Both the position numbers and the translations under genes were made by a program. The notes beneath the pieces are model-generated. The model was not told where the DNA came from. It saw only the letters and a program-made list of their open reading frames with translations, and ran no database searches. Source: a virus. Taken from it: a stretch of 21,857 nucleotides of DNA. How positions within the stretch are numbered: position 1 is the first letter of the stretch; the number at the start of each line of letters is the position of its first letter. This document shows, piece by piece, positions 15,000 through 21,692 of the stretch. Location: positions 1-21,857 of the IMG/VR virus record IMGVR_UViG_3300043399_000424; one strand, written 5' to 3'.

Positions 15000-15034
15000 G
15001 GCCGTCCGCCCACCACTCACCCGCCCAAGACGAC

Positions 15035-15502
15035 ATGCCCACCAATCCGACACCCATCACCTCGCTGCCCACGGCGCCATCGCGCGCCGACCCGGCCAAC
15101 TTTGCCGCACGCGCCGATGCGTTTTTGGGCGCCCTGGGCGCTTTCGGCACTCAGACCAATGCTGTTGGGTCGGCCACCTACACCAACGCCGTGGAGGCCG
15201 CTGCTGCAGCCAATGCCGCCCAGGCCGACCGCGTGCTGGCTCAAAGCGCTGCCGCCGCCGTGGCCGCTCAAAGTCCCGCCTCCAACGCCGCCGCCGCGGC
15301 CAGTTCCGCTGCAGCTGCAGCCGTCAGCGCCGGCCAGGCCATGGCCGTTAGCCCAGACAGCCCGGTACGGTTCAACTCGCGCCGCATCAGCGCTAACTTG
15401 ACCATCGGCAGCAATTACAACGCGGCCAGCACTGGCCCTATTTCCGTGGATGACGGCATCACCGTCACCGTTCAAGACCACGCCACCTGGAGCATCCAAT
15501 GA
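15035..15502 (+). CDS. Alanine-rich tail fibre / adhesin-anchor protein
   Basis: A 155-residue protein in three parts: a Pro/Thr-rich N-terminus, a helical region dominated by Ala (about 50-102) that could form a trimeric coiled coil, and a C-terminal beta part with TGPISVDDGITVTVQDHATW. That last motif is common at the ends of short phage tail fibre proteins. Its stop overlaps the start of the DGR variable protein (ATGA at 15499-15502), implying coupled synthesis. It is likely the stalk or adaptor that links the variable adhesin to the tail. The link is inferred from position. Confidence 0.62.
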   Translation: MPTNPTPITSLPTAPSRADPANFAARADAFLGALGAFGTQTNAVGSATYTNAVEAAAAANAAQADRVLAQSAAAAVAAQSPASNAAAAASSAAAAAVSAGQAMAVSPDSPVRFNSRRISANLTIGSNYNAASTGPISVDDGITVTVQDHATWSIQ

Positions 15503-16845
15503 GTAACCTTGTTATCCGTACCATTCAAACGCCCGACGGATCGCCCGTCGCTTTCCCTGATGGCATCCGCATTGGATCAGCGGGCGGAGCCGGTATGGTC
15601 AATCACATCGGCGTCCCAGGCCAGCAGGGCTTTGGCGTAGGCATCGCCCCCGAATTGCCTGCAGGCTTTGCCAAGCTGTATGGCACCGAGGACCCTGCCA
15701 GCGACAACTACGGCAACTACGTCTACAGCGACGGGTCGGTGATGTGCTACATCCCGGCGTTCTTCTACAAATACGGCACCGGCACCAACGGCCTGGCCAT
15801 CAACGTCGTTGACATCAAGCCATTCTCGCAATTTGCCACGGTTGCAGACGCCAATGCCAGCGGCTACGCCCTGCACCGCGCCTTCTACAACGGCGGCAGC
15901 ATTCGCCAGGGCTTTTTTGTCGACAAGTACCTGTGCAGCAACAACAGCGGCGTCGCGTCTTCGCTCAAAAACGGCATTGCGCTCAGCTCCGCTCAGCGCG
16001 GCTCGCTGTCTACGGCAACTTTTGCCTCGCTGACGGGCGCGCCCGGCAACAACCTGGCCGGCGCCATTGCGGCCGCCAAAACGCGCGGCAGCCGCTTCCA
16101 CGTTAACACCCGCTTCATCCGGGGGGCCATGGCACTGTTGGCTAACGCCCACGGATCTGCCGCTACGGGGTCCACCTGGTGCGCCTGGTACTCGGCCGGC
16201 TCGACCAACTTCCCCAAGGGCTGCAACAACAATGCCCTGGGTGACGCAAATGATGCGGCCATCGCCTATGTATCCGACGGCAACGGAACCTACGCATGCG
16301 GAAAGACCGGCTCGGCCAACATCTTTGCGCGCACCACGCACAACGGCCAAGTTTGCGGTGTGGCCGACCTCAACGGCTTGCTGTGGGAGGCGGAGCTTGG
16401 GCTGACCAGCAATGGCACCAACTTCTTTGTGCTGAAGACGGCTACCGATGTTGGCACCATCACCGGAGGAAACTCGGGAGCAACTGATGCCTGGGGCGCC
16501 ACCGGCCTGGCCGCCATGTACGACGACATCGGCGCCACCTATGAGATCCTGACTGCATCGGCCAGCAACAAAGTGTTTGGCGCAGCTGCGCAAGTGCTCA
16601 GCGCATCTACCAGCGGCACCGCCTGGTCGTTTGCCGGACTTGGCATCCCAATCGTTGGCGGCACCGGCGGAAGCAACCAGTTCGGCAGCGACTACCTGTA
16701 CGACGCCCGCCCGAATGAGCTTTGCGCGCTCTCTGGCGGCAACTGGACCGACGGCAGCAATGCCGGCGTCTGGGCGCTGTTTCTCAGCTCCGTACGCGGC
16801 AGCTCGGACAACTCCGTCGGGTTCCGCGCCGCCTCTTATCTGTAA
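15499..16845 (+). CDS. DGR variable protein (receptor-binding tail adhesin)
   Basis: A 448-residue protein whose last 40 or so codons are the variable repeat. The C-terminus has the C-type-lectin-like DGR pattern: GGNW, NAGVWAL at 421-427, VRG and GFRAASYL at the end. Diversified residues compared with the template are 411, 417, 418, 428, 430, 431, 435, 437, 439, 440 and 445. The upstream part is Gly/Ser/Asn-rich with CYIPAFFYKYG and FIRGAMALLANAHG, consistent with the lectin fold of Mtd- or TvpA-type variable proteins. GGAG at 15489-15492 is a well-spaced Shine-Dalgarno. The protein presumably sits at the tail tip and binds the host surface. The receptor is unknown. Confidence 0.92.
   Translation: MSNLVIRTIQTPDGSPVAFPDGIRIGSAGGAGMVNHIGVPGQQGFGVGIAPELPAGFAKLYGTEDPASDNYGNYVYSDGSVMCYIPAFFYKYGTGTNGLAINVVDIKPFSQFATVADANASGYALHRAFYNGGSIRQGFFVDKYLCSNNSGVASSLKNGIALSSAQRGSLSTATFASLTGAPGNNLAGAIAAAKTRGSRFHVNTRFIRGAMALLANAHGSAATGSTWCAWYSAGSTNFPKGCNNNALGDANDAAIAYVSDGNGTYACGKTGSANIFARTTHNGQVCGVADLNGLLWEAELGLTSNGTNFFVLKTATDVGTITGGNSGATDAWGATGLAAMYDDIGATYEILTASASNKVFGAAAQVLSASTSGTAWSFAGLGIPIVGGTGGSNQFGSDYLYDARPNELCALSGGNWTDGSNAGVWALFLSSVRGSSDNSVGFRAASYL
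16719..16836 (+). repeat. DGR variable repeat (VR)
   Basis: 118 bp that align without gaps to the template repeat at 17383-17500 (offset 664). There are 14 differences, every one opposite an A in the template (5 A to C, 5 A to G, 4 A to T). They change 11 amino acids and none is silent. The match ends one Tyr-Leu before the stop codon of the variable protein. Confidence 0.97.
16817..16831 (+). promoter_or_regulatory. Candidate initiation-of-mutagenic-homology (IMH) core
   Basis: A GC-rich, adenine-free run TCGGGTTCCGCGCCG is identical in TR (17481-17495), at the 3' end of the VR. IMH elements in known DGRs sit here and define where cDNA priming starts. The differences just after it (A in TR to C in VR at 16832, then GAG to TAT at 16837-16839) could be the IMH/IMH* polymorphisms that give directionality. 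A weak GGCCC / GGGCC stem (16851-16855 and 16871-16875) follows the stop. Confidence 0.6.
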
Positions 16846-16884
16846 CTCTGGGCCCTGAGCGATAGCGATTGGGCCACCGAGACC

Positions 16885-17379
16885 ATGGGACACCACACAC
16901 GCAGCATTCACGCCGAAGCCGGACTGCATCGCAAACTGATCCTGTTTGCGGTGCAGCTGGAGACCTACCTGGCGCATTTCCCGGCGTGCCACAAATACAC
17001 GCTGACACAGGAAATTCGTCAGGCGTGGCTGGATGTCTACAACCTGGTCACGGAGGCCCAAAAGCGCTATCACAAGCGCACCTCTCTGACGCAGCTCGAT
17101 GTCAGGCATGAGCAGCTGCGCATGATGCTGATCCTGGCCAACGAGCTGGGACTGTTTGATTTTTCTCGCGGCAAGCGCGACCCGGAGACCCCGGGAGAGC
17201 ACCGCTTTTTGGTCATCTTGCGCCTGGTCGACGAACTTGGAAGGATGATCGGCGGCTGGATGCGGACGGAGTTTCCCGATGCAGACCAGTCACCAAAGAC
17301 AGACCGCCAGGCTGCACAGCCTGCGGTGACCGAGTCCAAAAGGCAGGCGTTGCCTGCCCTGGATGCGGTGGGGGCTTGA
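16885..17379 (+). CDS. avd: DGR accessory variability determinant (Avd)
   Basis: A 164-residue, mostly helical, basic protein between the variable protein and the template repeat, the standard place for Avd. The segment HRKLILFAVQLETYLAHFPA and the following IRQAWLDVYNLVTEAQKRY match the helical bundle pattern of Avd, related to the S23/IVP four-helix family. Known Avd forms a pentameric barrel that binds the reverse transcriptase and the template RNA and is essential for cDNA synthesis. The last 35 or so residues look disordered. The stop lies three bases before TR begins. Confidence 0.87.
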   Translation: MGHHTRSIHAEAGLHRKLILFAVQLETYLAHFPACHKYTLTQEIRQAWLDVYNLVTEAQKRYHKRTSLTQLDVRHEQLRMMLILANELGLFDFSRGKRDPETPGEHRFLVILRLVDELGRMIGGWMRTEFPDADQSPKTDRQAAQPAVTESKRQALPALDAVGA

Positions 17380-17382
17380 CAT

Positions 17383-17500
17383 GCTTTGCGCGATCTCTGG
17401 CGGCAACTGGAACAACGGCAGCAATGCCGGCGTCTGGGCGCTGAATCTCAACAACGTACGCGGCAACTCGAACAACAACATCGGGTTCCGCGCCGACTCT
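17383..17500 (+). repeat. DGR template repeat (TR)
   Basis: The invariant donor copy of the variable repeat. It holds 27 adenines, of which 14 differ in the current VR. Read in the variable-protein frame it has 11 Asn codons of the AAC/AAT type (for example NWNNGSNAGVWALNLNN, then NSNNN), which is characteristic: A-mutagenesis of AAY reaches many amino acids but cannot give stops. It is transcribed and copied by the RT with errors at A. Confidence 0.97.
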
Positions 17501-17658
17501 GAGCCTGGCATGCCTCATGCGGCAATGGCCGACCGGCACAGAGGGAGCCCCCGTCGCGGCTTGCGCCGAAATCTTCAGCCTGCCCGCCCTTTGGTAGCTC
17601 ACGTCGGCCATGTTGCCGGCCGCGCGACGACTGGCGGACCGGCGCCTCGGAGGCGTGC
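17383..17658 (+). ncRNA. DGR template RNA (TR plus spacer)
   Basis: The 158 bases between TR and the RT start (17501-17658) carry no convincing gene. In characterised DGRs this spacer is part of the structured RNA that primes and positions the RT. A short palindrome GGCATGCC lies just after TR, and the region is GC-rich with complementary segments. The RNA ends are not defined by the sequence. Confidence 0.6.
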
Positions 17659-18684
17659 ATGAGGCGCCACGGCCAGCTTTTTGACCAAATTGCCACGCAG
17701 GAATCTTTGCTGGCTGCCTATAAACGCGCACGCGAAGGCAAGCGCAACCACCGTGGCGCATTCTTGTTTGCGCGCAACCTGGGCGCCAACATTCATGCGT
17801 TGCTGCAGGAGCTGCGCAGCGGCACCTACGCGCCGCAGCCCTGCAATTCATTCTGGGTGCGCGACGGTCGCAAGCCGCGGCTGATCGAGGCACCGTCCTT
17901 TCGCGACCTGGTGGTTCAGCACGCCGTCTATGCCGTAGTGGGACCGCTGTTTGAGCGCCGCTACATTGCCACCAGTTTTGCCTGCCGCGAGGGTCTTGGA
18001 ACCCATGCCGCCGCCGATTGGCTGCAGGCAGCCATGCGGCGCGCCCCACGCACCGCCTGGGTGTTGCACGTGGACGTGCGCAAGTTCTTCTACAGCGTCG
18101 ACCGCGACGTGCTTGCTTCCCTGGTCCGCCAGATCATCAAATGCCGTGACACGCTGCGCCTACTCGACCTGTTTGCCGTCCGTCCTGCGCCGACTGGCAT
18201 TCCAATCGGCAACCTGATGTCGCAAACATTTGCCAACCTGTACCTCAACAGTCTGGACCACTACGCCAAGCGCACCCTCCATGCCAAGGAGTATGGCCGG
18301 TATATGGATGACGCTGTCATGCTGGCTCCAGACCGCTCCACCGCGCAGCGCTGGCTGGACGGCATCCGTCGGCATCTGGCGCTCCTTGGCCTGGAAATCA
18401 GCCACTTCACCATGCAGCCCATCCGCCGCGGCCTGAATTGGGTTGGCTACCGCACCTGGGCCCGCATTCGTTTTGTGCGGCCACATCTCATTCATTCCGT
18501 GCGCCGCGACGCCAAGGCCGGGCGCATGGAGTCCTTGGTTTCACGTCTGGGGCACGCGCGCTGCACGGCCTCCCATCAACCACTCATCCGCTATCTACAG
18601 GAGCACCACCATGACATCGCTTGTTGCCTACCGCAAAGTCATCGACGCCATCACCACACACACTCTGCGCCTTCCGCAGTCTGA
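17659..18684 (+). CDS. DGR reverse transcriptase
   Basis: A 341-residue RT that copies the template RNA into A-mutagenised cDNA. Motifs in order: LIEAPSFRDLVVQHAVY (palm entry), HVDVRKFFYSVD with catalytic Asp139, GIPIGNLMSQ at 180-189 (the DGR-group variant with SQ in place of the QG common in other bacterial RTs), YMDD at 215-218, and GLNWVGYR at 258-265. The length and compact thumb fit DGR RTs; no maturase or endonuclease domain is present. The ATG at 17659 has a strong GGAGG (17649-17653). The last 25 or so residues are His/Ser-rich and overlap the next gene in another frame, so they may be poorly conserved. Confidence 0.96.
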   Translation: MRRHGQLFDQIATQESLLAAYKRAREGKRNHRGAFLFARNLGANIHALLQELRSGTYAPQPCNSFWVRDGRKPRLIEAPSFRDLVVQHAVYAVVGPLFERRYIATSFACREGLGTHAAADWLQAAMRRAPRTAWVLHVDVRKFFYSVDRDVLASLVRQIIKCRDTLRLLDLFAVRPAPTGIPIGNLMSQTFANLYLNSLDHYAKRTLHAKEYGRYMDDAVMLAPDRSTAQRWLDGIRRHLALLGLEISHFTMQPIRRGLNWVGYRTWARIRFVRPHLIHSVRRDAKAGRMESLVSRLGHARCTASHQPLIRYLQEHHHDIACCLPQSHRRHHHTHSAPSAV

Positions 18685-19078
18685 CGGCGCCTCACGCCAG
18701 GCCGGCCAGGAGCTTGCCACATTGCCTGACGGCCGCACTGTTGTCGCGCTTGATGAAGGCGCGGAGCTCCCGACCGCACAGCCTGCGGCCATCGCCTCAA
18801 GCATCGAGGTCCTGCCCAGCCCGCTTCCGGCTTCTCTTCGCGATGAAATCCGCGCATCCAGCCCGCAATGCCGATTGATCGACGCTCAGATGATCGAACA
18901 GATCCGCTCGGCGTACTCTGTGGACGACGAAATGTATCTGGCCCGCATTGGCGTTGGTGCCGCGCTTGGCACCTACACGCCCACCGACTCTGAGCTGGCC
19001 GCATTGCGCGACTACCAGGCCTGGGTTGAGGGTGTGCGGGCATGGGGACGCGCCCAGCGCTCTGCCCTCGGCCTCTAA
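18611..19078 (+). CDS. Conserved-looking phage protein downstream of the DGR RT
   Basis: A 155-residue protein. The ATG at 18611 has AGGAG at 18599-18603 and lies inside the RT gene, overlapping it by 74 bases in the +1 frame. The N-terminal half is Pro/Ala-rich. The C-terminal half (about 85-155) is helical, with LIDAQMIEQIRSAYSVDDE and YQAWVEGVRAWGRAQRSALGL. The latter resembles C-terminal ends of small phage tail-associated proteins that follow tail fibre genes. It may be a tail fibre chaperone or accessory protein for the variable adhesin, but this is inference and no family is certain. Confidence 0.68.
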   Translation: MTSLVAYRKVIDAITTHTLRLPQSDGASRQAGQELATLPDGRTVVALDEGAELPTAQPAAIASSIEVLPSPLPASLRDEIRASSPQCRLIDAQMIEQIRSAYSVDDEMYLARIGVGAALGTYTPTDSELAALRDYQAWVEGVRAWGRAQRSALGL

Positions 19079-19093
19079 TTGCCAGCCGGCGCT

Positions 19094-19288
19094 ATGACAA
19101 AAGTCATCCAACTGCTCAAATCACGCACCGTCTGGTATGCCATTCTGGTGGCGGTGCTTTCTGTCGTGCAGGGCTACGTCGGCCTCATTCCCACAACGCC
19201 TGCCAATCAAATGCTGGTTGGCTGCGCCATTTCAGTGGGCATTGTGGTGTTGCGCGCACTCACCACGGTGCCACTGTCTGAAAAATAG
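19094..19288 (+). CDS. Small membrane protein, candidate holin
   Basis: A 64-residue protein with two hydrophobic helices (WYAILVAVLSVVQGYVGLI and MLVGCAISVGIVVLRAL), a short basic N-terminus and a charged end. Size, topology and place at the start of the lysis-type cluster suggest a holin or pinholin. A TTG at 19079 is an alternative start giving five more residues; the ATG is preferred. Confidence 0.65.
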   Translation: MTKVIQLLKSRTVWYAILVAVLSVVQGYVGLIPTTPANQMLVGCAISVGIVVLRALTTVPLSEK

Positions 19289-19309
19289 ACATCCATCGAA
19301 AGCCTACCC

Positions 19310-19681
19310 ATGGAAGAAAACGCAACCGAGTACCAGGGGCCCGAGCGGCGCCGAACCGCTGTGCACACCATGTCGGAAGCGCAGGTCGCTCTCATGATCG
19401 AAGAAGAGGTGGACCGCCGGGTGGGCAAATTCGAGGAGCGAATGATGCTGCACATGGACGGCAAGTTCGCCCAACTGCACCGCCTGATTTCCGACGCTTT
19501 TCCAGACGGCGACCCACACGGTCACCGGATGTATCACGAGCGCCAAATCAAGGATGCCGACGGCTGGGACAAGATGAAGGCCGACATCCTTAGCAAGTTC
19601 TTGTCCAGCGGCCTGTGGGTGGCAGCCGGGTGGCTAGCGTATGCGGTCTGGCAGTCGTTCAAAAACGAGGTGCAGAAGTGA
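19310..19681 (+). CDS. C-terminally membrane-anchored phage protein
   Basis: A 123-residue protein. Residues 1-95 or so are charged and soluble (YQGPERRRTA, then a helical MIEEEVDRRVGKFEER). A single hydrophobic helix follows at about 98-115 (FLSSGLWVAAGWLAYAVW) and a basic end. The arrangement is common in small proteins of proteobacterial phage lysis regions. It could be a holin partner or antiholin. No family is recognised with confidence. Confidence 0.65.
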   Translation: MEENATEYQGPERRRTAVHTMSEAQVALMIEEEVDRRVGKFEERMMLHMDGKFAQLHRLISDAFPDGDPHGHRMYHERQIKDADGWDKMKADILSKFLSSGLWVAAGWLAYAVWQSFKNEVQK

Positions 19682-19731
19682 TCTGGCTGCTGTTGTGGCC
19701 GCGCCTGTGGTGGCGCTTCTTTGAGTGTTGA
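19678..19731 (+). CDS. Possible 17-residue hydrophobic peptide
   Basis: A GTG that overlaps the preceding stop (GTGA) opens a 17-codon frame encoding VIWLLLWPRLWWRFFEC, ending 13 bases before the next gene. Four tryptophans and mostly hydrophobic residues suggest a membrane peptide, and the stop-start overlap is the same coupling used elsewhere in the operon. It could also be chance. Confidence 0.25.
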   Translation: MIWLLLWPRLWWRFFEC

Positions 19732-19744
19732 AAGGCAATCGATC

Positions 19745-20164
19745 ATGGACCCATTGACCGTATCTGGCCTCCTCGGAATTGGCGGAAGGCTGATTGACAA
19801 GCTTTTCCCAGATCCAGAGCAAAAGGCCAAGGCCCAACTCGAGCTCCTGCGCATGGAGCAGGCCGGCGAGCTCGACGAGATGAAGACCCGGCTGTCGGCT
19901 ATCATCGCTGAGGCCAGTAGCGCCGACCCATGGACATCCCGCGCCAGGCCTTCCTTCCTGTACGTGGTCTACATCCTGCTGCTGTGGTCGATCCCGATGG
20001 GCGTGCTGTCCGTGTTCCGCCCTGAAGCAGCGGCCGCGTTTGCCTCTGGGTTCAAGGCGTGGCTCTCTGCGATCCCTGAGCCCATCCTCACGCTTTTTGG
20101 CGTGGTCATGACCGGTTATGTGGCCGGACGCTCATGGGAAAAGGTCAGGGGTGCATCCAAGTGA
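19745..20164 (+). CDS. Holin of the 3TM family (GTA-holin-like)
   Basis: A 139-residue protein with the typical opening LGIGGRLIDKLFPDPEQKAK, a charged helical middle (about 27-58), then hydrophobic segments at about 71-91 and 111-128 (PILTLFGVVMTGYVAGRSW). This is the pattern of Holin_3TMs proteins. It would permeabilise the inner membrane at lysis or act in virion release. The ATG at 19745 is preferred over the TTG at 19721 because AAAGG (19731-19735) lies just upstream. The stop overlaps the next GTG. Confidence 0.8.
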   Translation: MDPLTVSGLLGIGGRLIDKLFPDPEQKAKAQLELLRMEQAGELDEMKTRLSAIIAEASSADPWTSRARPSFLYVVYILLLWSIPMGVLSVFRPEAAAAFASGFKAWLSAIPEPILTLFGVVMTGYVAGRSWEKVRGASK

Positions 20165-20681: not shown

Positions 20682-21692
20682 ATGGCGTACTTCACCAAAA
20701 CCACGGCAGGATGGCGCTGCCAGATTGCCCGCAAGGGCATCCGACTGAGCAGCACCTTCCCCACCAAGGCGGCGGCCCAGGCGTGGGCTGCTGAGGAAGA
20801 GCGTAAGATCCTGCGTGGCGCCAGCGGGGCGTACCCGGACAAGACTCTGGCCGACGCGCTTGATGATTACCACCGCAAGGTCAGCGTCCACAAGCGCACC
20901 GCTCGGTCGGAGGGCTTGCGATTTGAGGCGATGAAACGCGAATTTCCCCACTTGTGCGTAAAAAAGTTGCACGAGATCACGCCGACAGACATTGCCGAAT
21001 GGCGGGATGCGCGGCGTGCTCAGGTCAGCGACTCCTCGGTCGTGCGTGAGGCGTCCACCCTGAAGAACCTATGGAATATCGCGCGTGACGAATGGGGGTG
21101 GTGCGGGGAATCCCCGTGGAAGAAAACCAAGATGCCGCGCAAGGCCCACGCCCGCACGCGCCAGACCTTGCGCAGTGAGCTGTACCGGCTGGTGCGATCC
21201 ATGGGCTACGTCACCGGCAATAAGCCCCGCACGCCGCAGCACCAGGTTGCGCTGGCCTACCTGTTGGCGCACCACACAGCGCTGCGGGCCGGTGAAATCT
21301 TGAGCCTTTCGCGGTCGTCGGTAGACCTGGAGAAACGAGTCATCTTCTTGGGCCACCACAAAACTGTCAAGGATGTCGGGGCGCGGAAGGTGCCGTTCAC
21401 CAGCAGGGCGCTGCGCCTGATGCGTCTGCTGGATGAGTGGGCAACCGAGGATGTCCGAGATGACTATTTCACCATCTCATCGCAGAGCCTGGACGTGCTG
21501 TTCAGAAAGGTGCGAGACAGACTGATGATCGAGAACTTGCGATTCCACGACAGTCGGGCGGCGGCGTTAACCCGACTTGCCAAGCGCATGGATGTGATGC
21601 GCCTGGCGCGGATCAGCGGCCACAAGGATCTGAGGCAGCTCATGGATGCTTACTACCGGGCGACTGCCGAGGACATCTCGGCGACCATTTAG
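20682..21692 (+). CDS. int: Phage integrase, tyrosine recombinase
   Basis: A 336-residue site-specific recombinase for integrating and excising the phage. An N-terminal arm-binding-type region (1-60 or so) is followed by a SAM-like core-binding domain (about 65-165) and the catalytic domain. Catalytic residues are visible in order: Arg202 in TALRAGE, Lys227 in GHHKTV, His289 and Arg292 in FHDSR, His314 in SGHKD, and nucleophile Tyr324 (or Tyr325) in DAYYRATAED. All are present, so the enzyme should be active. AGGG at 20671-20674 serves as Shine-Dalgarno. The stop overlaps the stop of the convergent AlpA-like gene by three bases. Confidence 0.95.
   Translation: MAYFTKTTAGWRCQIARKGIRLSSTFPTKAAAQAWAAEEERKILRGASGAYPDKTLADALDDYHRKVSVHKRTARSEGLRFEAMKREFPHLCVKKLHEITPTDIAEWRDARRAQVSDSSVVREASTLKNLWNIARDEWGWCGESPWKKTKMPRKAHARTRQTLRSELYRLVRSMGYVTGNKPRTPQHQVALAYLLAHHTALRAGEILSLSRSSVDLEKRVIFLGHHKTVKDVGARKVPFTSRALRLMRLLDEWATEDVRDDYFTISSQSLDVLFRKVRDRLMIENLRFHDSRAAALTRLAKRMDVMRLARISGHKDLRQLMDAYYRATAEDISATI

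Follow-up and report, generated by a model that had tools for sequence, protein, structure and literature searches.

What kind of element is formed by the repeat pair and the reverse transcriptase gene found in this viral contig of 21,857 bases (the window), and has it been at work on the phage protein encoded next to it? With a probability of about 0.97, the stretch is a complete, canonical diversity-generating retroelement (DGR) from a tailed phage that is probably temperate, and its genes are arranged as in Bordetella phage BPP-1. Three open reading frames follow each other on the + strand: the variable, or target, protein (15499–16845, 448 residues), Avd (16885–17379, 164 residues) and a reverse transcriptase (RT; 17659–18684, 341 residues), with the template repeat (TR, 17383–17500) lying between Avd and the RT. 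This order on one strand is the one that the sequence-only reading had proposed. Upstream of the target gene are a tape measure gene, a gene for a phrog_6278 protein and a fibre-like gene. Profile matches identify a three-TM holin (19721–20164) and a tyrosine integrase (20682–21692) downstream, which suggest that the phage is temperate, and the contig ends directly after the integrase. Searches of the window for tRNA genes and Rfam families found none. An open reading frame of 155 residues (18611–19078), the start of which overlaps the end of the RT gene, has no Pfam or PHROG match, and part of it falls inside the stretch that can be aligned to relatives.

The variable repeat (VR) occupies the end of the target gene (16719–16836, + strand). 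It differs from the TR at 14 of 118 positions, and every mismatch falls on one of the 27 adenines of the TR (five A>C, five A>G and four A>T; hypergeometric p 3.8e-11), exactly as had been read from the letters alone. The VR/TR pair is the only long direct repeat within 15000–19500, and in the whole 21,857-base record the TR matches only itself and this one VR. The mismatches alter 11 codons and none is silent. These counts, too, had been given correctly, together with the interpretation that the element has been "active and selected". The first half of that interpretation holds for the lineage, in which the VR turns over (see below), and the second half does not follow from these counts. When placed in the VR frame, 14 TR adenines are at the first codon position, 12 at the second and one at the third, and only three of the 81 possible single changes at these adenines are silent, while none leads to a stop codon. 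An absence of silent changes is therefore expected from mutagenesis alone and cannot be taken as a sign of selection. What it shows is a shaped template, rather than selection of the present VR changes. The AAC design of such templates is discussed in PMC12875486.

The RT matches RVT_1 in a profile search and PHROG 1423 (E 1e-94). Among solved structures it is closest to 8ub7, a "reverse transcriptase" of 328 residues (E 6e-55) that we take to be the BPP-1 enzyme, and it is 37.9% identical to BPP-1 brt. The protein carries IGNLMSQ (18205–18225, + strand), which fits [IVL]GxxxSQ, the DGR form of QGxxxSP, and the catalytic motif YMDD (18301–18312, + strand). Group II intron, retron and DRT reverse transcriptases were considered as alternatives and rejected: their models give weak matches far below curated cut-offs, neither QGxxxSP nor YADD is present, and phylogeny places the RT with those of DGRs. 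In that maximum-likelihood tree of 48 RTs, a branch supported at 100/99 separates 31 DGR-like RTs, the window's included, from group II-type, retron-like and DRT2 outgroups (some of them labelled from weak family matches), so that the phylogenetic check proposed at the outset puts the RT inside the DGR clade. A recognisable [IVL]GxxxSQ is absent from the pieces of L028 and L030 used in this tree. The window's RT branches beside that of L003 in a clade of viral contigs and two Burkholderiales genomes, to which the RT of Pseudomonas phage Bise is sister. The Bise RT is the closest among annotated phages (42.6% identity), and this phage also has a "four helix bundle" gene. The annotation of the Bise RT says no more than "reverse transcriptase family protein", and the likeness is one of RT sequence.

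Avd scores 50.5 bits against Pfam bAvd (cut-off 40) and matches PHROG 3206 (Avd of DGR). It falls below the NCBIfam equivalog cut-off, and a search of PDB sequences with it gave no meaningful match. For the target protein, an AlphaFold model built from 60 sequences, including diverse relatives, has a mean pLDDT of 81.8 and a pTM of 0.86. Foldseek ranks the Thermus aquaticus prophage protein TaqVP first (E 3e-13), followed by Mtd variants, and VIA-align gives the same picture, with a Z of 29.5 for TaqVP (298 residues, 3.2 Å), 12–13 for Mtd and about 10–11 for FGE-family enzymes. TaqVP (5VF4) is a DGR variable protein with an FGE-type C-type-lectin fold and, like the target, has its VR at the C-terminus (PMC6328139). 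The structural matches thus support a predicted C-type-lectin fold with the VR at the C-terminus of the target. The two proteins are only 23% identical and come from different phage lineages, and the likeness covers the target protein only. Relatives of the target are encoded in 415 viral stretches, and no plasmid with such a relative was found. Many of the viral matches are tail fibre proteins. Judging from gene order and fold, the target is probably a receptor-binding adhesin at the tail tip. The earlier description of a complete DGR acting on a tail adhesin therefore stands, in that target, Avd, TR and RT are all present and the target is a phage protein with a predicted C-type-lectin fold, the adhesin role being the probable part of it.

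Relatives of the element provide a natural experiment. A close RT is carried by 24 viral contigs and two Burkholderiales metagenome-assembled genomes (MAGs), one of them Rhodoferax; the papers available for searching included none that joins DGR and Rhodoferax. A TR/VR pair with the same architecture and pattern is present in 25 of the 25 close-RT loci that hold a whole VR (L011 was left out of this count, as its contig begins inside the VR). With the window added, the duplicate L019 dropped and one fixed A/C site, described below, excluded, the resulting 25 pairs show changes in the VR at 347 of 607 TR adenines vs 4 of 2,315 other positions. The most telling comparison is between L004 and L005, which come from different metagenomes and have about 13 differences over 8,299 aligned bases (99.84% identity). 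Their TRs are identical, their VRs have 13 differences, all at TR adenines, and about 1.9 kb around the VR are without any difference. Twelve other pairs with identical TRs, which share sequences and are not independent, have 11–19 VR differences, and in 10 of the 12 these fall wholly at TR adenines. The comparison across relatives that the sequence-only reading had called for thus finds VR variants almost wholly at TR adenines and a constant TR. It shows that the lineage has been active recently; this holds for the lineage, and not directly for the window's own phage.

These numbers bear on two other explanations of the locus. One is an ordinary duplication, in which the differences would have accumulated by positive selection on the adhesin and the RT would be a bystander from a group II intron, a retron or a defence system. 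It could draw on the fact that all mutagenised differences are non-synonymous and on the weak matches of the RT to group II and DRT models, but selection cannot restrict changes to template adenines in the way seen over the 25 pairs. Together with the grouping of the RT with DGR enzymes and with a TR that stays identical while the VR turns over, the adenine-only pattern in relatives refutes this explanation, and hardly any credence can be left to it.

An element that looks intact and is inactive in this particular phage, its VR frozen from past activity, is also improbable, if less so. Only a single VR is known for this phage, and relatives with deleted RT or Avd indicate that the lineage does lose its machinery. 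Of the 415 viral stretches with target relatives, 80 were kept, and in four of them (L115, L120, L145 and L116) the machinery is partly deleted. In three, the N-terminal part of Avd is fused in frame to the C-terminal end of the RT (L115:5230–5814, L120:2546–3052 and L145:1336–2013); these remnants have different junctions and contain neither the TR nor the catalytic domain. The fourth retains an RT remnant alone (L116:5379–5792). The machinery thus appears to have been lost recurrently among target relatives. In the window, however, RT, Avd, TR, spacer and motifs are all intact, near-identical relatives carry different VRs, and the TR and VR are free of the non-A differences that drift would add.

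Among known systems, the closest in organisation is the BPP-1 DGR (mtd, bbp7/avd, TR, brt), with which the window shares the gene order on one strand, an RT that is 38% identical, an AAC-rich TR, A-only changes upstream of an IMH/IMH* end, a GNNA-loop hairpin after the VR and a C-type-lectin target, the fold of which is nearer to TaqVP here than to Mtd. An adenine bias, a C-terminal C-type-lectin VR and signs of recent activity also characterise the metagenomic phage DGRs of Roux et al. 2021 (PMC8144416). The parts seen here could work together as follows, with BPP-1 as the model for the biochemistry, for the steps of homing and for the role in receptor binding. A transcript of avd, TR and spacer would fold by means of the spacer and be bound by the RT and Avd. 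The RT would copy the TR from just inside its 3' end, with frequent misincorporation opposite adenines. With the IMH and the downstream hairpin as guides, the mutated cDNA would then take the place of the VR at the end of the adhesin gene, and the changed residues would be displayed on the C-type-lectin fold of the adhesin, allowing progeny to try new receptors.

The element is a new member of a well-known kind, without a new mechanism, and it leaves the concept of the DGR unchanged. Its contribution is a well-defined DGR lineage of uncultivated phages, active in the recent past and with dozens of relatives, and with close RTs also in two Burkholderiales genomes. Since natural near-clones differ only in the VR, the mutation spectrum, the copied region and the requirements on the target site can be read from sequence alone. 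The mild novelties are a target hairpin interrupted by tandem G·A and the relatives with deleted machinery, three of them with in-frame Avd–RT remnants.

The repeats have a fixed difference near their 3' ends. When repeat pairs are aligned on the TR 3' end and compared site by site, TR A17496 (in GACTC) faces a C in the VR (C16832 in the window, in GCCTC) in 25 of 25 distinct pairs. Every other commonly present TR adenine faces a mix of VR letters, and C is found in about 13% of cells overall. In a wider set, which overlaps the 25 pairs, the TR-A/VR-C combination is fixed in 45 of 46, with one not scored. This constancy makes the site a fixed IMH/IMH* difference, so that 13 and not 14 of the VR–TR differences are attributable to mutagenesis; the earlier assignment of all 14 holds for the other 13 and fails at A17496/C16832. 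The IMH-like invariant 3' end of the VR, GGGTTCCGCGCCGCCTCT, would span 16819–16836 (+ strand; putative boundaries), with the fixed C at 16832 and no mutagenised adenine further downstream. The first mutagenised adenine upstream of A17496 lies 15 nt away, and these two sites bracket the 3' boundary of the copied stretch. cDNA synthesis in BPP-1 begins at the repeat 3' end and is primed by a spacer adenine (PMC12875486). The BPP-1 repeats also confine their non-A differences to the 3' end in our TR/VR comparison, but their IMH and IMH* differ at four non-A sites, whereas here there is one A/C site.

Immediately downstream of the VR is the putative target-site hairpin GGCCC-TGA-GC-[GATA]-GC-GATT-GGGCC (16851–16875, + strand), with a GATA loop and a 5+2 bp stem that, unlike that of BPP-1, is interrupted by tandem G·A. 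Published phage hairpins have GC-rich stems of 7–10 bp and GRNA loops (PMC3240598). The hairpins at 72 related VRs (some contigs were fetched twice) comprise 35 distinct ones, most of which combine a GNNA loop, a 2-bp stem and GA opposite GA; their loops include GCTA, which is outside the published GRNA consensus. The stem is near-continuous in L004 (GGCGC-GAAA-GCGCC) and in some other relatives, and that of L032 has a compensatory GT/AC apex. The outer stems covary: 30 distinct GA-type arm pairs have a mean of 4.43 bp, vs 3.31 when partners are exchanged (0/2000) and 1.21 when the letters are shuffled. As DNA, the window's own hairpin sequence folds no more stably than shuffles, and the function of its hairpin is thus one that we infer.

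The spacer between TR and RT (17501–17658, + strand) is predicted to be the structured part of the template RNA. RNAalifold, run on an alignment of 17 sequences comprising the TR end and the spacer, gives a consensus of 35 pairs with 95.5% of cells paired, and in 17 of the 35 pairs both sides have changed. The score for covariation, 0.344, compares with 0.169 after shuffling (0/500; the shuffles ignore relatedness), and sliding the partners abolishes the signal, which supports a structured RNA in this region. The fold of the single spacer sequence differs from that of the alignment and its z-score is not significant, so only the covarying consensus was used. Helix 1 of the consensus pairs CGAC at the TR end (17494–17497, + strand), which includes the fixed A17496, with GUCG in the spacer (17553–17556), and 98.5% of cells are paired. 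It contains no compensatory change, its support being conservation only. Such a helix would explain why the TR keeps an A where the VR has a C. Tentatively, and with rather less than an even chance of being right, the lineage may have a distinct variant of the target site, in which a GNNA-capped 2-bp stem sits on a tandem G·A internal loop (a Watson–Crick stem in some relatives) and a single invariant TR-A/VR-C difference between donor and target, its TR adenine being part of a helix formed with the spacer RNA, marks the 3' limit of the copied region. In one of the Burkholderiales MAGs (L031:4749–5000) the TR–RT spacer is 252 nt long vs 150–170, with the extra sequence located just before the RT.
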